This document shows, in pieces, positions 2 through 37,730 of a DNA stretch of 64,000 nt (position 1 is the stretch's first letter; the number at the start of each line of letters is the position of its first letter). Both the position numbers and the translations under genes were made by a program. The DNA is from Acidimicrobiaceae bacterium (GTDB taxonomy: Bacteria > Actinomycetota > Acidimicrobiia > Acidimicrobiales > RAAP-2). The stretch spans positions 50,957 to 114,956 of the forward strand of contig PMFN01000022.1 in NCBI GenBank assembly GCA_003155135.1, read 5' to 3'. Under the pieces are notes generated by a model. That model did not search any database. It was not told where the DNA came from and saw only the letters and a list, made by a program, of their open reading frames with translations.

Positions 2-531
2 CGCCTCGCCGGTGCCTTTTCGATGGCGGCCGGCGAGCTGGTCTCGGTCAAGGCGCACGACGATCTCGTCGAACATGAGATCGAAGTCGAGCGAGACGAG
101 ATCCAGTCGGAGAGCGACGCGAGCTCGCAGCCACGTACCGTGCCCGCGGCGTGCCGGCCGTCGACGCCGACACGGTGGCGCGCATCTTGATGTCGAACCC
201 CGCGGTGGCGCTCGACACCCACGCCCGCTTGGAACTCGGGGTCGATCCGGACGATGCCCGCTCCTCGCGTCAGGCGGCCGTCGTCTCCTTCTTCTCGTTC
301 TCGCTCGGCGCCGTCCTCCCACTACTCCCGTGGTTCTTCACGAGTGGGGCGACTGCGGTCGTTCTTTCGGTCGCCATCGGAGCGATCGCCGCATTCGCGC
401 TCGGCGCCGCGATCGGGTCGTTTTCCGCCCAGGGGGTCTGGCGGACAGCGTCTCGACAGCTCGCCGCCGCGGCCGTCGCTGCGTCCGTCACGTATGCGGT
501 GGGGCGTCTGATCGGAACCCGCTCCAGCTGA
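2..531 (+). pseudogene. VIT1/CCC1-family Fe/Mn transporter, 5' truncated by window edge and frameshifted
   Basis: VIT/CCC1 proteins are membrane transporters moving Fe2+ or Mn2+. The first ~110 bases, read in frame 2, give the family signature SMAAGELVSV followed by an acidic helix (VEHEIEVERDEIQ). From about base 112 the similarity continues in frame 1 (RRELAATYRARGV), through ILMSNPAVALDTHARLELG and two hydrophobic C-terminal segments, to a TGA at 531. Neither frame is open through both parts: frame 1 has a stop at 76-78 and frame 2 has one near 188. So there is one apparent indel between about 100 and 121. It may be a true mutation or an assembly error. The 5' end lies outside the window. 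Confidence 0.6.
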
Positions 532-570
532 CCCGAACCCTTGGGGCCGGGGCGCGATCGAAAGGGGGCG

Positions 571-1041
571 CTACGAGGCGTGCGCGCCGCGGGGATGGCT
601 GATCTGCTCCGTGCCCTCGGGCCGCACGATGACGAGAGGGCAGGGCGAGCGGTGTGAGCACTCGTGGCTGACCGAGCCGAGGGCGAACTCTTCGAAGCTG
701 CCGAGGCCACGTGAGCCGACGACGAGCAGGTCGGCGCCCTCACTGGCGTCAATGAGTGCCCGGGTGGCCGGAGGGTCGGCGGCGATCCCGACGACGGCGA
801 GTGACGGCTCGAGGGACCGCGCCCGCGCCACCTCGGCGTCAAGGACGGCCTGCTCGTGGGTGGAGGCGTCGTCGAAGACATCGAGGAGCTCGCGGCGGAA
901 GTACATGGCGTAGACGACCTCGAGCCTTGCCCCTCGGAGGCTTGCCTCATGTGCGGCCCACTCGAGCGCGAGCCGCGAGGGCGCCTCACCGTCGACGCCG
1001 ACCACCACCCGGGGGCCGTGGGCACTTGCTTGCTCTGACAT
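571..1041 (-). CDS. Universal stress protein, single UspA domain
   Basis: A 156-residue cytoplasmic UspA-type protein. It begins with the usual beta strand and Asp (VVVGVDGE) and ends with the ATP-binding signature G-x2-G-x9-G-S (VGSRGLGSFEEFALGSVSH) and the closing strand CPLVIVRP. This pattern is that of the ATP-binding Usp class. The start is supported by an AAGGAG Shine-Dalgarno sequence 6 bp before the ATG. It lies close to a tandem-domain Usp and a pyridoxamine-oxidase-like gene, a grouping seen in actinobacterial dormancy regulons. A DosR-like box lies about 120 bp upstream. The exact role of such proteins is generally unknown. Confidence 0.9.
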   Translation of the reverse strand: MSEQASAHGPRVVVGVDGEAPSRLALEWAAHEASLRGARLEVVYAMYFRRELLDVFDDASTHEQAVLDAEVARARSLEPSLAVVGIAADPPATRALIDASEGADLLVVGSRGLGSFEEFALGSVSHECSHRSPCPLVIVRPEGTEQISHPRGAHAS

Positions 1042-1160
1042 TGTGACTCCTTCAGTGAACCTCCTAGAGCCACGGTGACACAGATCAGGCCCGACGCCAA
1101 GGGCTGAAGGTCATGACCGTCCCGCTGCCTCCCGGCGGCGGCCGGACCGGGGCCGGGGCC

Positions 1161-1174
1161 GGGACCTTTGACCC
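1161..1174. promoter_or_regulatory. Candidate DosR/DevR-like box
   Basis: The sequence GGGACCTTTGACCC fits the degenerate DosR core GGRCYWWWGNCCY that I recall from mycobacterial hypoxia genes. It lies between the minus-strand usp gene (start 1041) and the small plus-strand gene at 1289, so it could serve either. No DosR-type regulator is encoded in the window. Confidence 0.35.
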
Positions 1175-1288
1175 TGTGCACCCCCGGGTCAACGGCGCGA
1201 CGCTGGCCAAATGCCCCCAGGAGCCGGACCGAGGAGCGACGCCGACCGGCCGTGTGGCGCGGCCACTCGAGCGGACATCTTGGACATC

Positions 1289-1438
1289 ATGACGTTGCTC
1301 CGCATCGTCGCCGACCGGCTCGAAGCGGCCGACTTCGGGGCCGACGCGCTCGATGGCCGCACCGAGATGTGCTTCGACCAGGCCAGCCAGGCGGTCTACG
1401 TGGCGCTCCAGGAGATGCAGGAGTGCCTCGCCGGGTGA
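1289..1438 (+). CDS. Small hypothetical protein (49 aa)
   Basis: A short reading frame in the 413-bp space between two usp genes. Nearly every third codon position is G or C, as in the real genes around it. The product is an amphipathic, acidic helix-rich peptide (LLRIVADRLEAADFG ... VYVALQEMQECLAG). The frame is open upstream, so a TTG at 1280 or an ATG at 1211 is also possible; the ATG at 1289 gives the most protein-like product. There is no clear Shine-Dalgarno sequence. I recognise no family. Its place in the stress cluster and behind the DosR-like box suggests co-regulation with the usp genes, but that is only context. The rest of this interval (1042-1288) holds only the DosR-like box. 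Confidence 0.45.
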   Translation: MTLLRIVADRLEAADFGADALDGRTEMCFDQASQAVYVALQEMQECLAG

Positions 1439-1454
1439 GCGGAGGCGGCGCAAC

Positions 1455-2357
1455 TCACTCAGCCAAACTGTGGGCCTCCGACTGCCTCGCACCCCGGACG
1501 ATGACCACCGGACAGGGCGCGTGCAGCGCACACTCCCGACCGATCGAGCCACGGAGCGCCTTTTGTACCGCGCTGCGCGTGGCACCGACCACCAGGAACT
1601 GGGCGTCGGCGCAGGCCGCGAGCAGGGCGGGTACCGTTGCGCTGATCCTGTCCTGGCACTCGAAGCGCACGCCTGGCGCTGCCTCCTGGGCGGTCGCCTC
1701 CGCAGCCTTGACGATGCGGGCGACCATGCCCTCGTAGCCCTGCCGGGGACCGGCGATGAACGAGCCGACGGGTGGATAGAACCAGGCGTAGACGGCGCGC
1801 ACCGGGACCGAGCGGCGCTCGCCCTCGGCGAGGGCCCAGCGCAGCGCTGCCGTCGCCTCCCGGGAGCCGTCGATGCCGACGACGATCGTCGACCCCGAGC
1901 GCGTTGTCGCCTCGCCACCTGGAGCGGACCGCACGATGAGCACCGGGCAGTGGGCGCTCGTCGCGCACCGGGCACCGATCGAACCGGGCACCAGGGCCGA
2001 CAGCCCGCCCTTGTCCCGAGTGCCGACCACGAGGAGGGAGGCCCCCTCGCTGGCGCAGAGCAGCGCCTGGGTCGCCGTCGCATGGATGATGTCGGTTGCC
2101 ACGTCGAGCTCCGGGTGGCATGCCGCCACGAGCGAGCGGGCCTGGTCGAGCACCTCGTCAGGGGTGGCGTCGCCCCCCATGTCGCCCTTGCGCCGCGTCT
2201 CGCTGGCCTGGGCCAGGACGACCCGCAGGCCCACACGCCGCACCGCGGCCTCGTCGGCAGCATTGCGCAGTGTGGCGAGCGAGTGCTCCGAACCGTCGAA
2301 CCCCACGACAACTGCGCCGTTCGTGGTCTTGGTGTGCTCCTCGGGTGTGGGTCGCAT
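1455..2357 (-). CDS. Universal stress protein, tandem UspA domains
   Basis: A 300-residue protein with two UspA domains in a row, each with its own nucleotide-binding signature: VGTRDKGGLSALVPGSIG in the first half and VGATRSAVQKALRGSIGRE in the second. Each half ends in a CPV(L/V)IVR strand. The second signature lacks the first usual glycine spacing, so the two sites may bind nucleotide differently. Two in-frame ATGs lie 18 bp apart. A GGAGG sits 6 bp before the second one, so I place the start at 2357 and not at 2375. It is divergent from the pyridoxamine-oxidase-like gene at 2510. A weaker DosR-like sequence is at 2460-2473. Confidence 0.88.
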   Translation of the reverse strand: MRPTPEEHTKTTNGAVVVGFDGSEHSLATLRNAADEAAVRRVGLRVVLAQASETRRKGDMGGDATPDEVLDQARSLVAACHPELDVATDIIHATATQALLCASEGASLLVVGTRDKGGLSALVPGSIGARCATSAHCPVLIVRSAPGGEATTRSGSTIVVGIDGSREATAALRWALAEGERRSVPVRAVYAWFYPPVGSFIAGPRQGYEGMVARIVKAAEATAQEAAPGVRFECQDRISATVPALLAACADAQFLVVGATRSAVQKALRGSIGRECALHAPCPVVIVRGARQSEAHSLAE

Positions 2358-5113: not shown

Positions 5114-5923
5114 TCAGCCGGGGTAGGGGCGCAACGGCGGGAGGAAGCGGGCGATGGTCGACATCGGCCGGTAGGGCTCCCACTGGCCCGCGGACTGGGC
5201 GAGCCGGTCGGCGATGATGAACAGCACGACCGGGTTCACCCCGAGACCGACATGGCTGCCCCAGACCTCGATGTTCTCGTGGCGCCCGTCGGGCTCCTGC
5301 AGGCAGGACTGCCAGGCCACCACCCCGTCGGTGCGGCTGTAGATCGAGGTGGCCGGCACCGGGAGCGGGCCGCGCTCGAACTCGTTGGGCATGCGCGAGC
5401 TGAGCCGCGGGCTGTGGAACCGGGCCATGGCCCGGTAGAGGCGCGTGGCGTGGGTGGCCCGGTGGTGCACCAGGTTGAAGGGCGAGCCGAGGGTGAGCAC
5501 CTGGCGCACGGAGTCCGGCGAGTGGCGCGCCATCTCCCGGGCGAAGATCCCCCCCAGGCTCCAGCCGATCAGGCTGACCGGCTCGCCGTGATTGTCCCCG
5601 AGATCGGCCAACCGCTCGGGCAGCTGCTCCAAGACCCGTTCGGTCGGGCCGAGGTTGACGCCGAGGCCCCAGCCGTAGGTGGTGTAGCCGAGCTCGGAGA
5701 GGTAGGCCCGCAGAGGCCGCGTCGTGCGGTCCCCGGCCGTAAAGCCGGGCAGTACGAGCACTGGGTGGCCGTCACCATGGGGGGCCATGCGCAGCGCCGG
5801 GTAGCTGGCGAGCATCGCCCCGTACTCGAGCCCGGCGCGCCACTCGAGGGCACGGAGCAACAGGGACGGGGCCCCGTATGCGTCCTCGACCTCCTCGCCC
5901 GGAGCGATGGCCTCCGCGGTCAT
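5114..5923 (-). CDS. Alpha/beta hydrolase coupled to wax ester synthase
   Basis: A 269-residue alpha/beta hydrolase. It has VLVLPGFTAGD as the oxyanion strand, a nucleophile elbow GWSLGG (Ser122), an acid in SRTDGVV and a late His in GSHVGLGVNP, which make a plausible Ser-Asp-His triad. It has no signal peptide, so it is probably cytoplasmic or lipid-droplet associated. Its ATG overlaps the stop of the wax ester synthase gene by 4 bp (ATGA), so the two are translationally coupled. That context suggests a lipase or esterase acting on stored or nascent neutral lipid. The upstream in-frame extension to 5986 lies inside the synthase gene and is rejected. Confidence 0.85.
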   Translation of the reverse strand: MTAEAIAPGEEVEDAYGAPSLLLRALEWRAGLEYGAMLASYPALRMAPHGDGHPVLVLPGFTAGDRTTRPLRAYLSELGYTTYGWGLGVNLGPTERVLEQLPERLADLGDNHGEPVSLIGWSLGGIFAREMARHSPDSVRQVLTLGSPFNLVHHRATHATRLYRAMARFHSPRLSSRMPNEFERGPLPVPATSIYSRTDGVVAWQSCLQEPDGRHENIEVWGSHVGLGVNPVVLFIIADRLAQSAGQWEPYRPMSTIARFLPPLRPYPG

Positions 5924-7407
5924 GGGACCGCCACCGCGCGCTGCAGCTCGCCCAGCTCCTCTTCGAAGTAGCCCATGAGGGTCCACAGGTCGGGCACCAG
6001 GTCCCGGTCGGCGATGAGCCCGACATCGAGGTTCTTCTGATAGCTCATGACGGTGATGTTCAGCCCTACACCGTCGGCGATCGTCGACACCGGGTAGGCG
6101 GCGAGCAGTCGTGCGCCGGCGAAGTAGAGCGGGAACGGTGGCCCCGGCACGTTCGAGATGACCACGTTGAAGGGCAGGAGCAGGCGATCGGCGAGTCGGA
6201 GCTGGGCGGCGAGGCGTGCCGCACGCGCCGCGATGGCCGGGGTGGCGAACTGGCTGAAGTCCTGGAGGAGTTCGGCCGGGATGGCCCGGTGCTGCTCCTT
6301 GGCGATCCGCATGGCGTCGTTGGTGCGCGCGAGCCGGGCGCCGGCGTCGGCCTCGTCGGTCGGCAGGGTGGCGATCATGGCCGAGACCTGGTTGCCGAAC
6401 GAGCCGCGCTCGGCCTCGGTGCGCACCGACACCGGCACCATGGCGAGGAGCGGCTCAGCCGGGAGCTCCTCGTGGTCGATGAGCCAGCGGCGCAGCGCAC
6501 CGGCGCAGATGGCCATGACGACGTCGTTCACCGTCACCCCGGCCGCGTTCTTCACCGCCTTCACGTCGTCGAGCGACAGCGTGGCGAACACCCAGCGGCG
6601 GTGGGCGCTGACTTTACGGTTGAACGATGTCCTCGGCGCGGCGCGCGCCGGAGCGGAGAGCACGTCGCGCCAGGGCTGGTCCGCCGCGTCGCCGAAGAGC
6701 CGGCCGACGAGGGGGAGACGGGCCGGGTCGGGGAGACCGAACACGGTCACATCCGAGCGCAGGCCCGAGAGCCCCCGGCGCTGGAGCTCTCGTGCCACGT
6801 CGGCTTCGAACTTGAGCAGCTTCATGGGCTGGAGGATGAGGGAGAGCGCACCGCGCGCGAAGCGCTCTCGTTCGCTCGGCACCCGGTCCGCCCGCCACGG
6901 CGTGGCCGGGGGCGGGGCGGGGGGCGCGTCGGCTTCGATGTCGAGCAGGAGCCCCTGGAGCTCGGCTCCCGACACACCGTCGATGGCCGCGTGGTGGATC
7001 TTGATCTGGATGGCGACGTGCCCGTCGGCCAGGCCCTCGATGAGGTAGAGCTCCCACAGGGGCCTTGCCCGGTCGAGATGGCGCGCCGCGATGCGGGTGA
7101 CCTGCTCGGCGAGCTGGTGGTCGTCGCCGGGGGCGGGCAGGGCCAAGTTGCGCACGTGGAAGTCGAGGTCGAAATCAGGGTCCTCGACCCACAGCGGGTG
7201 GTCCATCCCGAAGGGGACCTCGACCACCCGACGGCGCAGCGGCGGGAGCAGGTGCAGGCGGGACTCGACGAGGTCACGCACCCGCTCGAAGGTGAGGCCG
7301 CCCTCGACGGTGGTGGGGTCGAGCACCGACACGCTGCCGACATGGCCGTAGTTGGTCGCCGACTCCATATGGAGGAACGACGCGTCGAGGCCGCTCAGCT
7401 GGCGCAC
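5920..7407 (-). CDS. Wax ester synthase/diacylglycerol acyltransferase (WS/DGAT)
   Basis: A 495-residue bifunctional acyltransferase that joins acyl-CoA to a fatty alcohol or diacylglycerol to make wax esters or triacylglycerol, working at the inner membrane face and on lipid bodies. The catalytic HHxxxDG motif is intact (HHAAIDG, residues 138-144), preceded by the RPLWELYLIEG motif. The C-terminal half has FNVVISNVPGP and the conserved NITVMSY. Length is normal for the family. The GTG start has a GGAG sequence 8-10 bp upstream. It is first in a two-gene unit with the hydrolase at 5114. It indicates storage-lipid formation, as in many actinobacteria. Confidence 0.93.
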   Translation of the reverse strand: MRQLSGLDASFLHMESATNYGHVGSVSVLDPTTVEGGLTFERVRDLVESRLHLLPPLRRRVVEVPFGMDHPLWVEDPDFDLDFHVRNLALPAPGDDHQLAEQVTRIAARHLDRARPLWELYLIEGLADGHVAIQIKIHHAAIDGVSGAELQGLLLDIEADAPPAPPPATPWRADRVPSERERFARGALSLILQPMKLLKFEADVARELQRRGLSGLRSDVTVFGLPDPARLPLVGRLFGDAADQPWRDVLSAPARAAPRTSFNRKVSAHRRWVFATLSLDDVKAVKNAAGVTVNDVVMAICAGALRRWLIDHEELPAEPLLAMVPVSVRTEAERGSFGNQVSAMIATLPTDEADAGARLARTNDAMRIAKEQHRAIPAELLQDFSQFATPAIAARAARLAAQLRLADRLLLPFNVVISNVPGPPFPLYFAGARLLAAYPVSTIADGVGLNITVMSYQKNLDVGLIADRDLVPDLWTLMGYFEEELGELQRAVAVP

Positions 7408-28109: not shown

Positions 28110-28502
28110 CTAAACGTGGCCGCCCCGGCGGCTCTCGACGGTGGCGCCGATCAGGGCCGAGACGACGAGGGCGAGCGCAACCGGTGCGAACCAGATGCCG
28201 AACACGAAGGTGAGGCCGATGAAGAAGGCCCCCGAGGCGAGAACGAACGGCCAGATGCTCGATCCGGGGAAGCTGCTGATCACGCCCGCACCGCTCGCGA
28301 TGGTGGCGTCGGGGTTGTCCTCGGGCCGTTGGCCCATCTTGCGATACCAGTAGTAGTAGTACCCGCCCGGCAACAGGCCCAGCAGGGCCGAGCCGATCAG
28401 CATCAAGGTGCCGGCCTGCTCGTAGGACGTGAACCAGTAGATGGCACCGATGATGGCGAAGAAGATGCCGATGACGAGCAGGATGAACGACTCGGTCTTC
28501 AT
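28110..28502 (-). CDS. ctaF: Cytochrome c oxidase subunit IV (actinobacterial CtaF)
   Basis: A 130-residue protein with four membrane helices: [65 protein letters not shown] and [15 protein letters not shown]. The middle loop [20 protein letters not shown] is typical of the actinobacterial CtaF family. It is a small structural subunit of the aa3 oxidase. The ATG overlaps the ctaD stop by 4 bp, and it ends the ctaC-ctaD-ctaF operon. Confidence 0.9.
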
Positions 28503-30265
28503 ACCTCCACCGTCTCCCTCGTGCCGCCCGAGCCGTCACCACCGTGGCCGCTCGACGGGCCGGTGGGTTTGCCGTGGTGCAGGGCCGGGGAGTCAGGGTG
28601 GTTGTAGTCCCACGTGGGCCGCTCGGAGCGGATCGGCGGGAGGTGGGTGAAGTTGTGGTGCGGCGGGGGTGAGGTGGTGAACCACTCGAGGCCGCCGGCG
28701 TCCCAGGGGTTGTCACCAGCCGGCACCGGGTTGCGCCAGGAGATCCAAAGATTCACGAGCAGGATGGCGAAGCTGATGCCGATGACGAAGGCGCCGATCG
28801 TCGAGATCTGGTTGTAGACCTGCCAGCCGAGGTTCGACGGGTAGACCGCCACGCGCCGTGGCATGCCCTTCAGGCCCACCTCGTACTGCGGGATGAAGGT
28901 CAGCCAGAACCCGATGAACAGCAGCCAGAAGTGCCACTTGCCGAGCTTGTCCGAGAGCATCCGGCCGAACATCTTCGGGTACCAGAAGTACAGCCCGGCG
29001 AAGCCGGCGAACACGGCGGTGCCGAAGAGGACCTGGTGGAAGTGGGCGACCACGAAGTACGTGTCGTGGGTGAAGAAGTCGAGGGCGGGTGCCGCCAGCA
29101 TGACGCCGGTGACGCCACCCATGAGGAAGGCGAAGAGGAACCCGATGCAGAACAGCATGGGCGTCTTGAACGACAGCTGTCCCCGCCACATGGTGCCGAT
29201 CCAGTTGAAGAACTTGATGCCGGTCGGCACGGCGATCAAGAGGCTCAACAGGCTGAAGAAGGGCAGCAGCACCACGCCGGTCGTGTACATGTGGTGCGCC
29301 CAGACCCCCGTCGAGAGGGCGGCGATCGACAACGTGGCGAAGACCATGCCCTTGTAGCCGAACACCGGCTTTCTCGAGAACGTCGGGATCACCTCGGTGG
29401 CGATGCCGAAGAAGGGCAGGGCGAGGATGTAGACCTCCGGATGGCCGAAGAACCAGAAGAGGTGCTGCCAGAGCACGGGCACACCACCGCCCGAGACCGT
29501 GAAGATGTGCGTCCCGAAGTGCCGGTCGCAGTAGAGCATGATCAGCGCGGCGGTGAGCACCGGGAAGGCGATCAGGATCAAGATGCCGGTCACCAACATG
29601 TTCCAGGTGAAGATCGGCATCCGGAACATGGTCATACCCGGGGCGCGCAGGTAGAAGATGGTGGCGACCAGGTTCACCCCGGTGAAGATGGCCGAGAAGC
29701 CCGTCAGGGCCAGCGCCATGATCCACATGTCCGAGCCCGCCCCCGGTGAGTTCGTGGCGTTCGACAGCGGGGCGTAGGCCACCCAGCCGAAGCTCGAGGC
29801 GCCGCCGGCCACGAAGAAGCTGAGCAGCATGGTGATCGAGCCGCCGGCGTAGAGCCAGTAGGAGAGCGCGTTCAGGCGGGGGAAGGCCATGTCGGGCGCG
29901 CCCACCTGCAACGGCACGATGTAGTTGGCGAGGCCACCGAAGGCGAAGGGCCCGGCGAACAGGTACAGCATCAGGCTGCCGTGCATGGTGAACAGCTCGT
30001 TGTACTGGGAGAAGCTGAGCAACGAGCTCGACGGGCTCGCCAGCTGGAGGCGGATGACGAGGGCCATGATGCCCGCCAGGTAGAACATCACGAGCGACGT
30101 GATCATGTAACTGAGGCCGATGACCTTGTGGTCGGTGGTGGTCAGCCACTTGAGCACGCCGGTCGGGCCGTGCTCCTCAGCGTGGCCGTGCTCGACCACG
30201 TGCTCGTCGACCGCCGTTACGTCGCCCCCACCACCGATGACCGGCGGGTTGATGACGTCGGTCAT
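28499..30265 (-). CDS. ctaD: Cytochrome c oxidase subunit I
   Basis: A 588-residue haem-copper oxidase subunit I with twelve predicted helices. It holds haem a, haem a3 and CuB. Key motifs are [30 protein letters not shown] (CuB His and the Tyr cross-link helix), HHMYTTGV, and [17 protein letters not shown]. It reduces O2 to water and pumps protons; the HPEVY motif and the standard helices suggest an A-type enzyme. A 30-residue His- and Glu-rich N-terminal extension ([11 protein letters not shown]) precedes the core. Its ATG overlaps the ctaC stop (ATGA). In-frame sequence upstream to 30421 lies in ctaC and is not used. Confidence 0.95.
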
Positions 30266-31089
30266 GAGGAGCCTCCTTGCACGGTGCTCGAGTTTGCGTG
30301 GTACGCCGTGGTCGACGCCGACGTGGAGTTCTGTGCGAGCCACGCCTCGTAGGCCGAGGGCGACACCGCCTTGACCTGGAAGATCATCAGCGAGTGGTAG
30401 AGCCCGCAGAGCTGCGTGCACTGTCCGCGGAAGGTGCCGGCGTGGTTCACGTTGAAGCTGAACTGGTTCGTCACGCCCGGCAGGGCGTAGCGGCTGAAGT
30501 TGAACTCGGGCACGTAGAAGCCGTGGATCACGTCGCTCGAGCGGAGCACGATGTGGACGTTCTCACCGACCGGCACGACCATCGTCGGGTTCTGCAGCTC
30601 CTGGCCGATCACGGTGACATTGTGGCCTGGGTAGCTGAACCGCCATCCCCACTGGAAGGCGGTGACGTTCACCTGGACGTTGGAGGCCGGGACCGCGTCC
30701 ACCGAGTTCTCCGTGACCACCGAGAAGTAGAACAACACCAGCACCATGACGATCGGCACCACGGTGTAGATGATCTCGAAGAGCGTGTGGTACTGCGTCT
30801 GGGCCGGGATCTTGTCCGAGCGGCGGCGGTAGCGCAGCACCGCCCAGAGAATCAGGAACGCCACGAGGATGAACACGCACAGCCCCGTGATGAAGAACCC
30901 CTGCCAGAGCTTGTTGGCGTCGACGGCCTGCTTGGTGGCACCCCGGTAACCGCCGAAGGTGGGCAGTTGGCAGCTGGCCAGAACGAGGGGGCTGAGGACG
31001 ACTGCCCCGAGCGCCAGGCGGCGCGTCGTCAGCTTTGGCAGCCTCCGACGGGGTCGCGCTAGGGGTGAGCCGGCCGAGGGCGAATCCAC
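30262..31089 (-). CDS. ctaC: Cytochrome c oxidase subunit II
   Basis: A ~275-residue membrane protein with the CuA electron-entry site. It begins with a signal sequence and lipobox (LVLASC), has two membrane helices ([20 protein letters not shown] and [18 protein letters not shown]), and then the cupredoxin domain with the copper-binding motif [14 protein letters not shown]. It receives electrons from QcrC. The start is uncertain. A TTG at 31098 and a GTG at 31089 are in frame, and neither has a Shine-Dalgarno sequence. A TAGATT hexamer sits 7 bp before the GTG, so I prefer the GTG as a leaderless start. It is first in ctaC-ctaD-ctaF. Confidence 0.92.
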
Positions 31090-31096
31090 AGCGCTC

Positions 31097-31102
31097 AATC
31101 TA
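31097..31102 (-). promoter_or_regulatory. Candidate -10 element, leaderless start of ctaC operon
   Basis: TAGATT on the minus strand, 7 bp before the GTG at 31089. This would make the TTG at 31098 part of the promoter and not a start codon. Confidence 0.4.
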
Positions 31103-31184
31103 GCGAAGGGCGCCTAAAAACACGAAATCGCAGTTGGGGGCGTCGCGCCAGGGCCAAAAGTCCCACCGTGCCCGATTTCGTGGC

Positions 31185-32477
31185 TCAATCCTCGGGCGAC
31201 GAGGTGCGCGCCGCCCAGTTGAACACCCCTTTGGCCATGGTCGAGGTCGCGTGCTCGGCGCGCGTGGTGAACACCCGCTGGCGGGCGTCCGCGATGGCCG
31301 GGTCGCTCGGATCCGCCAGCCACGCCATCTCCGCCAGGTGCCCCGCCAGGCGGAGTGCCCCTTCGGTGTCGGGTCCCGCAGCGGTCGGCGCCGGCTGGTT
31401 GAGCAGCTCGAGGGCTCGTGCCGCCAAGGCGCCAGGCCCGCCGGCGAGGGCCGCCACCTCGCTGGCCAGGGCCACCTCGGGAGCCGGCTTCAAGGTGGCG
31501 GGGTTGCCGTCCCACCAGCCGCCGTAGAGGCGCCAGATGTTGTGCACGATGAACTCGGGCTCGTCGTAGATCGGCCGCAGATACGACAGCCCGGCGAGGT
31601 GGGAAGGGACCTCGACACTGTGGATGGCTTCGTCGAGGCGCCCACCGTTGTTCATGATCTCGAGCGTCTGCTCGACGAGGGACTCGAGCAGCTCGGCGGT
31701 CCCGCCGAGCGCCTGGGCGACCCGGTCCGAACCCATGACCGGCAGGCCGTGGCCGGGGAGAAGGTACTCCGCATCCAGGGTCAGCATGCGCCGCAGGGCC
31801 TGGGCCCACTCACGCGGATAGCGCTGCACCTTCTGGGGGTTGCCGGCGTTGGGCGAGGCGAAAATGAACAGGTCGCCGCAGCACAGCACACGCTTGTCGG
31901 CGAACCAGCTCACCGTGTGGTCGTCGGTCTCGCCCTTCTCGTGGACGAGGTCGAGGTGCACGCCGCCGACATCGAGGGGGCGCCCAGCCCGGTAGGTCTC
32001 GTCGGGGTAACGGTATGCCGTCGGCCAGATGAGGTTCTTGAAGCCGAACTGGCGCCGGTTAATGACCTGGTTGTAGCCGGCGGTCGCGATGTAGCGGTCG
32101 AAGCGGTCCCGAATCGCCTCATGGGCGATGACGACCGGTGGAGCCCACCCCTTCTCCGCCGACTCCGCCTCCCAGACGCCGACCCCGAAGACGTGGTCGA
32201 TGTGCCCGTGCGAGAAGACCGCGGTGTTGAGGCGCTGGTCGCTCCAGCGCCGCAGTTCGGTGTGGATCAGCGGTGCGACGGGCTCTGAGCCGGTATCGAT
32301 GAGCACGAGGCCGTCGTCGGTCGTGATCGCCGTGACGTTGGCCAGGGTGGGGACGAAGGCCACGCCCTGGCAGATCTCGGCCATGCCGCCGAGGTGGCCG
32401 ACGGGGTGGTACTCGCTCCAGGGATCGACCTCGCCGCGCCAGAGGCGGTCGGCCATCTCGACGACGTCAACTGCCAC
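31185..32477 (-). CDS. Metallo-beta-lactamase-fold hydrolase, alkyl sulfatase-like
   Basis: A 430-residue cytoplasmic MBL-fold protein. The metal-binding motif is SHGHIDH in VFSHGHIDHVFG, with later ligands in GETDDHT, CGDLFIFA and LLPGHGLPV. The second half (LRPIYDEPEFIVHNIWRLYGGWWDGNP) has the dimerisation-like segment of SdsA/alkyl and aryl sulfatase relatives. It therefore likely hydrolyses an ester or sulfate ester; the exact substrate is unknown. It is shorter than SdsA (~650) because it lacks the C-terminal SCP2 part. The GTG start has AAGGGCGG upstream. It is a single gene on the minus strand between ctaC and tatA. Confidence 0.8.
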   Translation of the reverse strand: MAVDVVEMADRLWRGEVDPWSEYHPVGHLGGMAEICQGVAFVPTLANVTAITTDDGLVLIDTGSEPVAPLIHTELRRWSDQRLNTAVFSHGHIDHVFGVGVWEAESAEKGWAPPVVIAHEAIRDRFDRYIATAGYNQVINRRQFGFKNLIWPTAYRYPDETYRAGRPLDVGGVHLDLVHEKGETDDHTVSWFADKRVLCCGDLFIFASPNAGNPQKVQRYPREWAQALRRMLTLDAEYLLPGHGLPVMGSDRVAQALGGTAELLESLVEQTLEIMNNGGRLDEAIHSVEVPSHLAGLSYLRPIYDEPEFIVHNIWRLYGGWWDGNPATLKPAPEVALASEVAALAGGPGALAARALELLNQPAPTAAGPDTEGALRLAGHLAEMAWLADPSDPAIADARQRVFTTRAEHATSTMAKGVFNWAARTSSPED

Positions 32478-32540
32478 CGTGACCGCCCTTCACCCACCGG
32501 GCGGGTATCCGGTGCCCGCGCCGACCCGCTGGCGGCATGC

Positions 32541-32777
32541 TCAGGAGGGCTTGGTGGAGCCCGGGTTCTCGCTCTTGGCCTCCGTCGAGTCCGGGGCCGG
32601 GGTGTCGGTCGCGGTGGCGTCGTCCTCGTGGCCCTCGGTCATGCCCTTTTTGAATTCCTTCTGGGCCGAGCCGAGGTTGCGGGCCAGCTTCGGGATGGCA
32701 GCGCCACCGAAGAGCACCACGACGATCACCAGCACGACGATGAGGAGGTCCGGGCCGAAGATTTCTGCCAGTTGCAT
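32541..32777 (-). CDS. tatA: Sec-independent protein translocase TatA
   Basis: A 78-residue Tat component. The single helix FGPDLLIVVLVIVVVLFGGAAIPKLARNLG has the TatA hinge (FG) and amphipathic helix, followed by SAQKEFKKGMTEG and an acidic, disordered tail (DATATDTPAPDSTE). It forms the pore part of the twin-arginine exporter, which moves folded proteins such as Rieske domains. AAGGAG lies 6-8 bp before the ATG. TatB and TatC are not in the window. Both Rieske proteins here carry internal twin-arginine motifs. Confidence 0.9.
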   Translation of the reverse strand: MQLAEIFGPDLLIVVLVIVVVLFGGAAIPKLARNLGSAQKEFKKGMTEGHEDDATATDTPAPDSTEAKSENPGSTKPS

Positions 32778-32871
32778 GGGGAGGCTCCTTGCACGGTGGC
32801 CACCCGACGGCGACCCACCTTCCGACAGGTTAGACCCTGGCCCCGGCACGTGGGGCCCGGGGTCGGCAGGC

Positions 32872-33297
32872 CTACCCGGCGATCAATATCCCGAGGAAGA
32901 GGGCGACGACGGCGGCCAGCCCGGCCACCGAGCCCCAGATGGCGAGCCCCGCCTTCGTAGTCGCCCGCTGGTGGAGGAACGTCCCGACGCCGGTCAGGAT
33001 GACCATGACCATCTTGACGCCGAAGACGGCCTGCCAGGTGTTGGACTGGTCCGACAGGTTGACCGCGGCGAGGTTCCAGAAGCCGGTGATGATGAGGAGC
33101 GCGAACGCCGGCCACGCCAGGCGGCTGAAGGCCCGGGCGAGGGACTTGGGGGCTTCGGGCCCGAGGGTGCGGGCGGTCGGCTGGAGCCCCATCATCACGA
33201 ACATGCCGCCGACCCAGACGGTGGCGCCCGCCACGTGGAGGAACAGCCGGATGGCGTCGAGGGTGGGGGCGAGCGGCTGGGCCGCCGCTTCGATCAC
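32872..33297 (-). CDS. CopD-like/DUF membrane protein
   Basis: A 141-residue integral membrane protein with four helices, including IRLFLHVAGATVWVGGMFVMMGL, LAWPAFALLIITGFWNLAAV, VKMVMVILTGVGTFLHQR and WGSVAGLAAVVALFLGIL. The spaced His in LFLHVAGATVWVGG and the later WNLAAVN match the CopD family, which includes copper-uptake and cytochrome-like membrane proteins. Substrate unknown. The GTG overlaps the crotonase stop by 4 bp (GTGA), so the two are coupled. Confidence 0.7.
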   Translation of the reverse strand: MIEAAAQPLAPTLDAIRLFLHVAGATVWVGGMFVMMGLQPTARTLGPEAPKSLARAFSRLAWPAFALLIITGFWNLAAVNLSDQSNTWQAVFGVKMVMVILTGVGTFLHQRATTKAGLAIWGSVAGLAAVVALFLGILIAG

Positions 33298-34064
33298 CGA
33301 CCCGTCCAGTTGGGCGGGCGCTTCTCGGCGAAGGCGATCGGGCCCTCCATGGCGTCCGCACTCGAGAAGATCACGCGCATCGCCTCGTCGTTGATCCGCC
33401 AGCCCTCCTCCTCGGAGACCTCGGCGGCGTCATGGATGAGCTGCTTCGAGTAGCGCACCGACAGCGGGGCATTCGCCGCGATGCGCTCGGCCAGCTCCAT
33501 GGCGGCGGGGAGGAGCTCATCGGCGGGGACGACCCGGTTCACGAGCCCGAGCTCGAGGGCACGGTTGGCGTCGACCGGGTCGCCGGTGAGGGCCAGCTCG
33601 TAGGCGAAGGCGAGCGGGATGCGCTTGGGAAGGCGGATGAGCCCGCCGCCGGCCGCGAACAGGCCGCGCTTGACCTCGGGGATGCCGAAGGTGGCGTGGT
33701 CGGCGGCGACGACCATGTCGCACGAGAGCACGATCTCGAAGCCACCGGCGAGGGCCGAGCCGTTGACCGCCGCGATGAGGGGTTTGGGGAACGACCGCTT
33801 GGCGATGCCCGCGAAGCCGCCGTTCGCGGTGGCGATGTTGGCGTCGCCACTGGCGAAGGCCTTCAGGTCCATACCTGCCGAGAAAGCCTTCTCGCCTGCA
33901 CCGGTGAGGACGACCACCCAGGCGCCGTCGTCGTTCGTCAGCTCGTCGAGGGCGTCGGAGAGTGCGTGGGCCACGGCGCCGTTGATGGCGTTTCTCGCCT
34001 CGGGACGGTTGATGGTGAGCAGTTCGACGTGCCCTTGTCGCTCCCGCAGTAGCTCGTCGGCCAT
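33294..34064 (-). CDS. Enoyl-CoA hydratase/isomerase (crotonase) family protein
   Basis: A 256-residue crotonase-fold enzyme that would hydrate or isomerise an enoyl-CoA thioester. The oxyanion hole is seen in GEKAFSAGMDLKAF and in NGSALAGGFEIVLSCDMVVAA, and the region holding the second acid in FGIPEVKRGLFAAGGGLIRL. Length is usual. AGGAGGAG lies upstream of the ATG at 34064, so the in-frame extension to 34229 is rejected. It is first in a two-gene unit with the CopD-like protein. The pathway is not determined; fatty-acid beta-oxidation is likely but not shown. Confidence 0.85.
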   Translation of the reverse strand: MADELLRERQGHVELLTINRPEARNAINGAVAHALSDALDELTNDDGAWVVVLTGAGEKAFSAGMDLKAFASGDANIATANGGFAGIAKRSFPKPLIAAVNGSALAGGFEIVLSCDMVVAADHATFGIPEVKRGLFAAGGGLIRLPKRIPLAFAYELALTGDPVDANRALELGLVNRVVPADELLPAAMELAERIAANAPLSVRYSKQLIHDAAEVSEEEGWRINDEAMRVIFSSADAMEGPIAFAEKRPPNWTGR

Positions 34065-34179
34065 GCCTCTCCTCCTGGTCACGTTGGCGACGCCAACGGT
34101 GCTCGCTCTGTCAGGGCGAGACGCTACTCCGCCCGACGCGAGTGGGAACGTCCCGCACGGACTCTGCCATGCTGTCCCG

Positions 34180-35571
34180 GTGCCCATCGCGGACAACGAC
34201 TCGGGCTTGCACTTCGGCGTGAGCAGCACCTCCTACGGCAGCGAGGGGGGGCTCAACGGCCCCGGTGAGCCGGCCAACAACTGGGTGCTCTGGGAGCACA
34301 GCGGTCACGTCGAGCCTTCGGGGCTCGCGTGTGACGGGTGGGCCGACCCGTCCTCGTGGATCGAGCGGGCACAGGCCCTCGGCGTCGATTCGGTCACCCT
34401 CGGTGTCGAGTGGGCCCGCACCGAGCCAGCCGACGGCGCAGTCGACGCCGCCGCCATCGACCGCTACGCGAGCACCCTCGCCGAGCTCCGACGTGCAGGC
34501 ATCGAGCCCACCGTCGAGCTGTCCCACTTCACGCACCCGTGGTGGCTGGGCCAGGAGTTCTGGCTCATGCCGGGCTCGCCGGAGCGCTTCGCACGTCACG
34601 TCGCCGAGATGACCCGTGCGCTCGGCGAGCACTGTTCCAACTGGATCACCATCGCCGAGCCCGCGGCGGTGTCGATCAACGGGTGGGTCACCGGTCGGTT
34701 CCCCCCCGGCCGGCGCCTGGCGGTCGCCGACCGCTACGCCGTGCTCGACAACCTGCTGTGCGCGCACGTGCTGGCCGCACGCGCCATCGGCGAGCTCCAA
34801 CCGTCAGCGGCGGTGGGCATGAGCACGGGGTGCTCGAGGGTCTATGACTTCGACCGGATCTGCCTCGACCTCCTGGCCGCACCGAGCCTCGAGGTCGCGA
34901 CGGCCGACCTCGACGAGTGGATCGCCCTGCGCCGGCGGGAGTTCGCGGCCGCACTCGCGCGGCCGTCTCGCTCCGGTGCGCCCCGCCGCGTCTCGCCGCT
35001 GTACCTGGCGTCGGCACTCTCGCCCTACGGGCCCACCGGGGGGCGGGCGCAGCGGCGGCTCCGGCGGCCCTCACCGCGGCGGCTCCAGCGCGTCCTCGCC
35101 GAGTCGGGCGCCGCGCCGCCCTTCAATTTCGTGGCCGTCGAGCATCCCGGCGCGCTCGCTGCGGGCGACCCGGCCGCCGCCCTCGGCGTCGCCGCGTGGT
35201 GCGGGGATCTCGCCGACACGTTCCCCACGGTGGCCATCCGCGTGAGCGGGGCGGCGGTGGCGGGCCGGGTGCACAACGGGGCGGCCGTCGGGGAGCCGCT
35301 CCCGAGCCGGCGCGAGGCCATCGCCGCCGACCTCGAGGGGCTCGGGCGGGCGAGGCGCGCCGGCGTGCCCATCGAGTCCTACTCCTACCGCTCGCTGGTC
35401 GACGAGTACGGCTTCGGCAGCTACGAGCTGCGCACCGGCCTCTACGGCATGGACCGCGCCCGTGGGCCCCGAGGCATCCGTTGGCTCGAGACCGACAGCG
35501 CCGGCGACGACGCCGTCGGCGCCTACGCCAAGCTCATCGAGTCCGCCCGGGCGCAGGGCGGGGCCGGCTAG
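34180..35571 (+). CDS. Glycoside hydrolase family 1-like protein with altered catalytic residues
   Basis: A 463-residue protein that follows the GH1 beta-glucosidase pattern: HFGVSSTSYGSEGGL at the N-terminus, GVDSVTLGVEWARTEP, RAGIEPTVELSHFTHPWWL, and near the end GVPIESYSYRSLVDEYGFGSYELRTGL. The acid/base motif TxNEP reads TIAEP (Glu160 kept, Asn replaced). The nucleophile motif ITENG reads AIRVSG, with Val355 at the nucleophilic Glu position. Such a protein cannot act by the standard retaining mechanism. It may be inactive, a binding protein, or use other chemistry. The GTG start lacks a Shine-Dalgarno sequence. There are no sugar transporter genes next to it. Confidence 0.75.
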   Translation: MPIADNDSGLHFGVSSTSYGSEGGLNGPGEPANNWVLWEHSGHVEPSGLACDGWADPSSWIERAQALGVDSVTLGVEWARTEPADGAVDAAAIDRYASTLAELRRAGIEPTVELSHFTHPWWLGQEFWLMPGSPERFARHVAEMTRALGEHCSNWITIAEPAAVSINGWVTGRFPPGRRLAVADRYAVLDNLLCAHVLAARAIGELQPSAAVGMSTGCSRVYDFDRICLDLLAAPSLEVATADLDEWIALRRREFAAALARPSRSGAPRRVSPLYLASALSPYGPTGGRAQRRLRRPSPRRLQRVLAESGAAPPFNFVAVEHPGALAAGDPAAALGVAAWCGDLADTFPTVAIRVSGAAVAGRVHNGAAVGEPLPSRREAIAADLEGLGRARRAGVPIESYSYRSLVDEYGFGSYELRTGLYGMDRARGPRGIRWLETDSAGDDAVGAYAKLIESARAQGGAG

Positions 35572-35580
35572 GCCGACCCC

Positions 35581-36273
35581 TCAGCGGTCGCCCTCATTTT
35601 CGGCGGCCGGTGCGGCCACCAGCTTGTCCTCGGTCTCGGGATGGGTGGCCTCGTAGCCCTCCTCGAAGGTGCGCTCCTTGCGGCGTGAGCGCAGGAGCAA
35701 GGTGACCGCGGCGACCACCACCAGGGCCAGGACGGCGTAGGAGGCCCAGTTGGCGTATTTCTCGGCGCGTTGGTAGGCGTTGCCGACCAGGTAGCCCAGC
35801 ATGACGTAGCCGGTGCCCCAGATGACCCCCCCGGCGGCGTTGGCCATCAGGAAGGTGCGGTACCGCATGCCCGAGAGCCCGGCCAGGCCGGGAATGACCG
35901 CCCGCAGGAAGGCGGTGAAGCGGCCGATGAACACGGCCCACGCGCCGCGCGTCTTGAGCAGGCCCATCGCCCGGTCGATGCCGCCGCGGCGGTGCCGAAG
36001 GAGCTTGAAGTTGAGGACCCGCTCGCCGTAGCGCTTGCCAACCTCGAAGCCCACGCTGTCGCCGGTAATGGCGGCGACGATCACGAGCGGGATGAGGATG
36101 GCGAGCTGGACGCGGCCCTGGCTGGCGATGACCCCACCCAGGATGACTGCGGTCTCGCCGGGGAAGATGAAGCCGACGAAGATCGCCGCCTCGGAGAAGA
36201 CGAGGGCGAAGACAATGAGGTAGACGGCGAGCGGGCTCATGTGCAAGATGGGATCGAGGATCTGGGTCAGCAC
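35581..36273 (-). CDS. DedA family membrane protein
   Basis: A 230-residue DedA-type integral membrane protein, likely involved in lipid or undecaprenyl-phosphate translocation across the membrane. Hallmarks are VGFIFPGETAVILGGVIAS, GDSVGFEVGKRYGERVL, the charged GRFTAFLRAVIPGLAGLSGMRYRTF and a C-terminal helix followed by RRKERTFEEGYEA. The start is taken as the GTG at 36273, with GGGGGATGA ~9 bp upstream. The C-terminal tail is long and charged. It is a single gene, convergent with the GH1-like gene. Confidence 0.85.
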   Translation of the reverse strand: MLTQILDPILHMSPLAVYLIVFALVFSEAAIFVGFIFPGETAVILGGVIASQGRVQLAILIPLVIVAAITGDSVGFEVGKRYGERVLNFKLLRHRRGGIDRAMGLLKTRGAWAVFIGRFTAFLRAVIPGLAGLSGMRYRTFLMANAAGGVIWGTGYVMLGYLVGNAYQRAEKYANWASYAVLALVVVAAVTLLLRSRRKERTFEEGYEATHPETEDKLVAAPAAENEGDR

Positions 36274-36416
36274 ATCTTCATCATCCCCCGCAGGTCGGGT
36301 CGGGCCAACCCCGAGGCCGCGCGGCACGGCCCGCTCCCTATCCTGTGGTTGATGAGCTGGCGCGATGCACCCTGTGCTTCAGCGGTCTCTCAGCGCCAGT
36401 GCGCCAGACTGGGCTT

Positions 36417-37730
36417 ATGTCGCAGCGCAGCCGCCCGGTGCGCACGGTGAGCTCGAAGCCGGTGAGCACCCGGCCGGGGAGCCCGAAGACCAAGACGGTC
36501 ATGAAGCGCCCGGCGCGCTGGGTGTTCTGGTCCCCTCCGCCCCACGCCAACGCGATGGCCTCGTGGGCGCTGCTCCCGCTGCGGGCATTCCTCGGTTTCA
36601 CCTTCTGCTTCGCGGGGCTCCAGAAGCTCACCAATCCGAACTTCTTCAACGCGCAGAGCCCCTCGAGCATCCAGGCCCAGCTGATCGCCGCCAACCGCAT
36701 CAGCCCGCTGCACGTGCTGCTCGGCCACCTGCTGCAGTTCGCCACGCCACTCGGCATCGTCATCGCACTCGGCGAGCTGGCAGTCGGCATCGGTGCGCTC
36801 CTCGGCCTGTGGACCCGCATCGCCGCTCTGGGTGGCATGGCGCTGTCGGCCATGCTGTTCCTCACCGTCAGCTTCCACTCCTCCCCCTATTACACGGGCG
36901 CGGACATCGTGTTCTTCTTCGCCTGGACCCCGTTGCTCATCGCCGGTGCCGGGGTGCTCTCGCTCGACAGCCTCATCAGCTCGTTTGCCCGCAACGAGGT
37001 GGGGCAGGGCTCGCCGGTCTTCGTGCCCGTCACCTTCGAGCTCGTGCAGAAGGTGTGCGGCAACTTCGACGATGGCCACTGTGCCGCACAAAAGGGCGCG
37101 CCGTGCGACACCAAGGGCTGCCCCTACCTCGCCGCCCAGCACACTCCGAGCGTCCGGGCCAACCCCGACGCCGTCGACCGCAGGATGCTCGTGCTCGGCG
37201 GCGCGGCCGTGGCCACCGCGGGCATTGTCGGACTCACCACCGCGGGCATCTCGGCGGCGATCGGCCGGATGGTGGGCGGCGCCAAGGCGCCGAACTCGGG
37301 CTCGGGCACGTTGCCCGGGCCCTCCGCTTCGGGATCGACCTCGACGACCGCTCCCACGGGCGCCACGACCACCGCGCCGGCGGGTGTCACGACCACCACC
37401 ACGCCGGTGGCCGTCCCGGCCGGCACCCGAGTCGGGCCGGCCAAGGACGTGCCCGTCGGGGGTTCGGCCTCCTTCCAGCTGCCCTCGAGCGGCGACCCGG
37501 GATTGATGCTCCAACTCAGCTCGGGCAGCTTCCTCGCCTACGACGCCATCTGCCCGCACGCCGGCTGCACCGTGGGGTACTCGAGCGCGGCCAAGCTCAT
37601 CGTCTGCCCGTGCCACGGGTCCGAGTTCAACCCGTCCAACGGTGACGTCATCCAGGGGCCTGCCCCCCGAGGCCTCACGTCGTACCCGGTGGCCGAAGGC
37701 CCCGACGGCGAGCTGTACGTCAAAGACTGA
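36417..37730 (+). CDS. DoxX-like membrane domain fused to Rieske [2Fe-2S] domain
   Basis: A 437-residue fusion. The first part (~40-200) is DoxX/TQO-like with four helices (LPLRAFLGFTFCFAGLQKL, GIVIALGELAVGIGALLGL, ADIVFFFAWTPLLIAGAGVLS). A Cys-rich linker follows (CGNFDDGHC ... CDTKGC). Then there is an internal twin-arginine-like DRRMLVLGG (254-262) and one more helix, a Thr-rich linker, and a Rieske domain with ligands CPHAGC and CPCHGS. It probably passes electrons between the quinone pool and an extracellular partner. The ATG at 36417 is the start choice; later Met codons are possible. The neighbouring two-component pair may regulate it. Confidence 0.75.
   Translation: MSQRSRPVRTVSSKPVSTRPGSPKTKTVMKRPARWVFWSPPPHANAMASWALLPLRAFLGFTFCFAGLQKLTNPNFFNAQSPSSIQAQLIAANRISPLHVLLGHLLQFATPLGIVIALGELAVGIGALLGLWTRIAALGGMALSAMLFLTVSFHSSPYYTGADIVFFFAWTPLLIAGAGVLSLDSLISSFARNEVGQGSPVFVPVTFELVQKVCGNFDDGHCAAQKGAPCDTKGCPYLAAQHTPSVRANPDAVDRRMLVLGGAAVATAGIVGLTTAGISAAIGRMVGGAKAPNSGSGTLPGPSASGSTSTTAPTGATTTAPAGVTTTTTPVAVPAGTRVGPAKDVPVGGSASFQLPSSGDPGLMLQLSSGSFLAYDAICPHAGCTVGYSSAAKLIVCPCHGSEFNPSNGDVIQGPAPRGLTSYPVAEGPDGELYVKD

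Follow-up and report, generated by a model that had tools for sequence, protein, structure and literature searches.

The gene at 34180–35571 (plus strand) of the window, the whole 64,000-nucleotide stretch of Acidimicrobiaceae DNA that was analysed, encodes a GH1-like protein that has lost its catalytic nucleophile. It is probably a pseudoenzyme kept for a role other than that of a glycosidase, predicted to be most likely the binding of a ligand or a partner. Two points slightly lower confidence in this reading: the GH1 trees oppose repeated loss, and alignments disagree on the register at the nucleophile. The history proposed here starts from a GH1 beta-glycosidase gene that would have stood divergent from an enoyl-CoA hydratase gene. 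The catalytic site would have been lost in several lineages of one Acidimicrobiales family, the barrel, the start, a promoter-like element and the chromosomal place presumably being retained through the loss. The protein would then no longer cleave glycosides but would bind a ligand or a protein partner, either within the remodelled mouth of the barrel or next to it. We infer binding as the function, and likewise that the copy in the window is expressed and has a function.

The gene, its fold and its active site

The frame runs uninterrupted for 463 codons from a GTG at 34180, encoding a GH1-like pseudoenzyme of 463 amino acids. GC by codon position is 0.731/0.580/0.927, and GC3 is high in each third of the gene; with its open frame and a GC3 of 0.93, the gene is real. 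Six nucleotides upstream of the GTG lies a nine-base extended −10-like element of the leaderless type, TGCCATGCT (34165–34173, plus strand). The pattern TGNNANNCT, which was picked post hoc when the rows had already been inspected, stands 5–9 nt from an in-frame ATG or GTG (RTG) in 27 of 29 rows (21/21 altered and 6/8 intact), against 0.1 matches of pattern plus start expected from shuffles. As a pattern match, this putative promoter-like element fits a leaderless gene and supports the start at GTG 34180. For the divergent promoter, TANNNT was looked for 4–12 nt before the start of the hydratase gene and was found in 0 of 56 loci.

The copy in the window is called WIN here and its genus g1 (g-numbers denote genera, L-numbers rows or loci and G-numbers genomes). 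The GH1 pattern that had been claimed for it is borne out by sequence over part of its length and by fold over the whole. PF00232 matches with an E value of 5.8e-25, limited to residues 11–231, and against TIGR03356, the NCBIfam model for beta-glucosidases, the score is 103 bits, far under the cut-off of 478.5. The AlphaFold2 prediction (from an alignment of 54 rows) has a pLDDT of 90.3 and a pTM of 0.92, and in this model the GH1 barrel is complete. Judging by their titles and by what is known of some of them, the 50 Foldseek matches listed are GH1 enzymes. The best VIA match is 2cet_B, a beta-glucosidase from T. maritima, with an rmsd of 2.6. (A relative from g4, L068, was likewise predicted with a pLDDT of 85.7 and a pTM of 0.89.)

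The positions of the two catalytic glutamates in a bacterial GH1 enzyme are described in PMC11448918 (in excerpt). At the first of them, where TxNEP had been reported to read TIAEP, WIN indeed has T-I-A-E-P at residues 157–161: in Ala159-Glu160 (34654–34659, plus strand, from alignments) the Asn of NEP is lost and the acid/base Glu is kept. At the second, MAFFT and phmmer alignments place Val355-Ser356-Gly357 (35242–35250, plus strand), with no carboxylate. The first-pass annotation had put Val355 in place of the catalytic Glu; the phmmer alignment to 6z1h agrees, but MAFFT with near relatives, gap-free through the stretch, puts Gly357 in that column. Since there is no acidic residue between D346 and E372, the nucleophile-bearing stretch of WIN, the nucleophile Glu is absent whichever register holds. 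No ENG was found at a shifted position in WIN either, and standard retaining hydrolysis should be impossible, as had been supposed.

What has become of the rest of the pocket? The set of sugar-holding residues and their numbering are those of P. polymyxa BglB: Q20, H121, N165, N353, W398, E405 and W406. In WIN these read Q20 to Gly20 (34237–34239, plus strand), N165 to Ala159, N353 to Ala358, and W398, E405 and W406 to Arg404, Gly411 and Phe412 (35389–35415, plus strand), as judged from alignments with relatives. H121, F122 and E166 are kept, as H116, F117 and E160. Of the six residues of the −1 subsite (Q20, H121, N165, W398, E405, W406), only the His is left. By these alignments the −1 subsite of WIN is mostly dismantled, along with the loss of the nucleophile. 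Most of the glucose-holding residues there are gone too, which makes it unlikely that the old −1 site still binds sugar.

Among 107 columns conserved at 94% or more in 35 rows with both catalytic glutamates, WIN keeps 3/10 active-site columns and 65/97 others (a weak Fisher result, p=0.035, uncorrected), and the 18 other altered rows keep 0–2/10 against 42–67/97 (p 0.00009–0.047, uncorrected). The claim that the rest of the protein is well kept thus holds for most of the other columns and for H121, F122 and E166, but not for the six replaced sugar-holding residues. Similarly, the gene looks maintained for some function, by its GC3, promoter-like element, synteny and non-catalytic columns, but sugar binding, at least at the −1 site, is not the part of that proposal that stands. 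Ten columns that the rows with both glutamates conserve are also kept in all 19 altered rows (G23, P31, W78, P120, G124, W128, P175, P176, D190 and H196), and these may be structural or the mark of a second site.

The locus and its relatives

WIN matches 52 of 61 nearby genomes, its own counted, and nine are without a match; with a strict limit (E up to 1e-55), matches were found in 54 of the family's 172 genomes. Of 84 aligned rows, WIN counted, 25 are without one or both catalytic glutamates (L051 and L114 come from the same gene of one genome, each a piece at a contig end). A contig search with alignment, in which 80 of 138 confirmed loci were listed, supplied 33 rows additional to the set. 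Both glutamates are present in all 33 of these relatives (named records, among the matches listed), many of which are titled Acidimicrobiaceae, Acidimicrobiales or Actinomycetes.

Conservation of TIAEP and of Val355 among orthologues, which the first-pass annotation had proposed as a check, was not found: same-locus genes keep both glutamates or differ in other ways. Most rows of g4 read RQP/EDG at the catalytic motifs. Among the 11 g4 rows, Asp stands at H121 in all, Gln at the acid/base position in ten and Glu at the nucleophile in nine; in most of them the nucleophile is retained and it is the acid/base that is lost. The g7 rows (L042, L043) have EEP and no ENG, having kept the acid/base Glu and lost the nucleophile. 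In g11 and g19 (L039, L040, L041, L085) the alignment, which is gappy, puts an acid (Asp or Glu) at each of the two catalytic positions, with the sugar-holding residues gone; a second alignment (A1) places these acids differently, and a shortened acid pair is possible. Two further genes may be noted on their own account. L081 (G082, g5) has ETG for ENG, its other checked active-site residues being kept. L111 (G045, family f10; 5229–5993, minus strand) is a GH1-like protein of 407 amino acids that reads Asp-Gln at NEP and has Val in the nucleophile position, and no match to the hydratase lies near it within the stretch examined; it is possibly another pseudoenzyme, outside the family.

The syntenic anchor of the locus is the divergent enoyl-CoA hydratase (ECH, crotonase) gene at 33294–34064 (minus strand). 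Upstream stands a partly conserved block (28499–33297, minus strand) that encodes cytochrome c oxidase (COX) subunits I and II, an alkyl-sulfatase-like metallohydrolase and a CopD-like protein. (The metallohydrolase, at 31185–32477 on the minus strand, joins a metallo-beta-lactamase fold to the alkyl-sulfatase dimerisation domain PF14863.) No metallohydrolase or CopD-like match was found in the g4 loci, some of which are short. Downstream follow a DedA/VTT-domain membrane protein (35581–36327, minus strand) and a DoxX-Rieske protein (36345–37730, plus strand, predicted start). In the latter a DoxX domain and a Rieske [2Fe-2S] domain share one chain, separated by a segment that contains cysteine. 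ORF28713 was rejected as a locus marker, being a shadow frame of the COX1 gene at 28499–30421, and COX1 was used in the linked-gene tree. Neighbours such as the respiratory oxidase, the crotonase and DedA give no hint of sugar use.

Altered genes adjoin ECH in 21 rows of seven genera (g1, the window's own, g4, g7, g9, g11, g18 and g19), and genes with both glutamates do so in eight rows of five genera (g2, g6, g12, g16 and g17), although in three of the latter (L055, L093 and L095) about 0.9–1.9 kb separates the gene from ECH. COX1 and COX2 lie beyond ECH in most of these 21 and 8 loci where the contig extends, so that ECH with the COX genes adjoins altered and intact genes alike. In g3, g5, g15 and g21, about 1.7 kb separates ECH from nearby genes with both glutamates; this stretch holds in L070, on our own reading, a thiolase-like frame, and in L093 (g17) the intervening stretch holds a different one. 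Next after the gene come both DedA and DoxX-Rieske in the window and in g7, g11, g18 and g19, and DedA alone in g6; DoxX-Rieske is absent after the gene in the g4 and W-type intact loci examined.

Loss of catalysis and selection

How often was catalysis lost? In the 80-row GH1 tree (from which L004, a duplicate, and the partial L051, L114, L112 and L073 were left out), WIN groups with the altered rows of g7, g11, g18 and g19 (100/96), and the g4 rows with g9 (100/97). The two altered groups adjoin, a branch of 98/93 dividing them from the other 59 rows. The 36-row GH1 tree, drawn from the 80 (L053 being left out of it, of alignment A1 and of the column test), also brings the altered rows of the locus together (93/88). 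It places WIN with g7, g11 and g19 (100/98), and speaks against a placing with the intact W-type and g4/g9 rows (AU p 0.017, for a clade named once trees had been seen). These groupings of the altered rows (98/93, 93/88) speak against repeated loss, but long branches may be pulling the altered rows together in the GH1 trees, and that of WIN is long (terminal branch 1.02 in the 80-row tree).

A tree of six linked genes, on the other hand, separates g4 and g9 from g7, g11, g18 and g19. On the linked genes a single clade of all altered rows, and with it one loss for all, is rejected (p-AU 0.038; 0.021 without WIN), and WIN with g7, g11, g18 and g19 is not (p-AU 0.29), in tests that dropped 16 of 46 rows, concerned clades named post hoc and are limited by long branches and low column filling. 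The downstream order of DedA and DoxX-Rieske fits the latter grouping of WIN, but could equally be an old arrangement. An altered gene of another kind is L079 (G071, g15; 501–1907, minus strand), at an ECH position of the type spaced by about 1.7 kb, in which the acid/base Glu is replaced by Gly and the nucleophile Glu is kept, with Gln20 and Trp398 replaced. Since L079 is nested among g15 rows with both glutamates in the 80-row tree, it would represent a further, separate loss. The losses at this locus thus probably number two or more, that of L079 coming on top; more than one loss is supported but not settled. A more far-reaching version is tentative: GH1 would have lost catalysis several times in parallel at one locus, its ancestor already having a second, non-catalytic role that selection kept, and the pocket of g4 would have been rebuilt, conserved and charged, with a new ligand or reaction.

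In eight core rows of g4, picked after the rows had been viewed, 9 of the 11 columns of the pocket do not vary (R-D-R-Q-W-E-D-D-P, in which W and E are shared with the intact W-type rows), and conservation is 0.87 in the pocket against 0.69 in the rest (P=0.02). Over all 11 g4 rows the difference is nonsignificant (0.68 against 0.61, P=0.23). Altered genes are present in all 13 g4 genomes, if G034, which has no PF00232 match by this model, is counted by its contig-end piece L052; in the other 12 the altered gene is the single PF00232 match. A role for the altered copy in regulating an active paralogue was therefore rejected as a general explanation, since the g4 genomes have no second PF00232 match, though the window's genome does carry a paralogue with both catalytic glutamates, L034.

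The dN/dS ratios of the g4 genes are 0.24–0.53 (45 pairs among 10 rows; Nei–Gojobori, own script), with 0.32, 0.30 and 0.24 for the three nearest pairs, as against 0.05–0.36 for pairs with both glutamates and 0.05–0.27 for ECH of the same g4 pairs, the GH1-like gene being the higher in 45 of 45. These comparisons leave out synonymous-saturated pairs (one in g7, two of three altered pairs in g11 and three of six pairs of the other g11 gene). There are no within-genus pairs for g9, g18 and g19, with one altered row each, or for the window's genus, with one genome. The altered g4 genes are under purifying selection, weaker than that on ECH and on most intact pairs, and its level matches what partial relaxation would give.

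This bears on the main rival, slow decay, in which selection on the enzyme ended when its substrate or the need for it was lost, and the frame is simply still unbroken. With L034 in the same genome, the window's copy could be expendable; its long terminal branch and the excess of dN/dS over ECH fit such a course, as do the nine relatives without a match, by which the gene is losable, and the four g11 and g19 rows, where conservation is lower in the pocket than outside it (0.23 against 0.41). Decay would not, however, readily account for a promoter-like element in every altered row at the locus, for altered genes throughout g4 with every dN/dS below 0.54, for non-catalytic columns better kept than catalytic ones, or for the lack of premature stops among the matches listed in the relatives' genomes. 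On balance it is an unlikely explanation, if a serious one.

Rather more improbable is a new enzyme, in which the retained acid/base, together with residues new to the pocket, would catalyse another reaction. WIN does keep E160, the g4 core pocket is largely invariant, and a Gly357 at the nucleophile would resemble engineered, nucleophile-less glycosynthases. In g4 a nucleophile Glu paired with Gln for the acid/base recalls the classical plant myrosinases, which run on Glu and Gln with ascorbate (PMC8836197, in excerpt). However, most of the sugar-holding −1 residues are lost in both WIN and g4, no more than 5 of the 19 altered rows have the equivalent of E160, the alignment around Gly357 is of uncertain register, and no new catalytic set common to the altered genera was found in the aligned rows. 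That a double frameshift or a mis-binned contig masks a normal motif is very improbable even for a draft genome of 55 contigs and 93.2% completeness, given the continuous frame with high GC3 in all thirds, the conserved synteny, the same kind of loss in other genomes, and the fact that neither of the two remaining forward frames (ORF 34917–35705 included) has anything like ENG there.

Comparison with known systems

The reading preferred here, of a pseudoenzyme kept for binding, has its counterparts elsewhere. To our knowledge, GH1 pseudoenzymes are known from animals (Klotho), and none from bacteria was found in the open-access literature, among the matches listed. In beta-Klotho, a mammalian co-receptor of GH1 fold, the catalytic Glu is replaced in each domain and the protein serves in protein binding (PMC10229096, in excerpt). 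It is a tandem, membrane-bound animal protein, whereas WIN is bacterial, consists of one domain and has a more heavily changed site. Among plants, classical myrosinases (GH1) have Gln for the acid/base, keep the nucleophile Glu and use ascorbate (PMC8836197). Most g4 rows share this pairing of Glu and Gln, a single feature present in all eight core rows, but have also changed the sugar-holding residues; WIN shows the reverse arrangement.

Inactive members of glycosidase families may also matter for their hosts, as the GH28 pseudoenzymes of beetles do (PMC6549527, in excerpt). Those belong to another family and arose by duplication in animals, whereas in 12 of 13 g4 genomes the altered GH1 gene is the only PF00232 match. 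Automatic "beta-glucosidase" labels may accordingly overstate the capacity to degrade sugars. Repeated loss of a GH1-type gene is reported for human GBA3 (PMC7360587).

Set against an active enzyme, the T. maritima beta-glucosidase 2cet, WIN is likewise a complete barrel (Z 41.8 over 380 aligned residues) with the acid/base Glu kept, but it is without the nucleophile Glu and most residues of its −1 subsite are replaced. The closest comparison is offered by the intact orthologues at the same locus (L090–L095, L055 and L056), which have ECH and COX adjoining, 41–46% identity and, in six of eight, the promoter-like element. Unlike WIN, these have NEP and ENG intact, though L095 has Arg for W398. 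With intact and altered orthologues at one locus, the question why a glycosidase barrel outlives its chemistry becomes testable.
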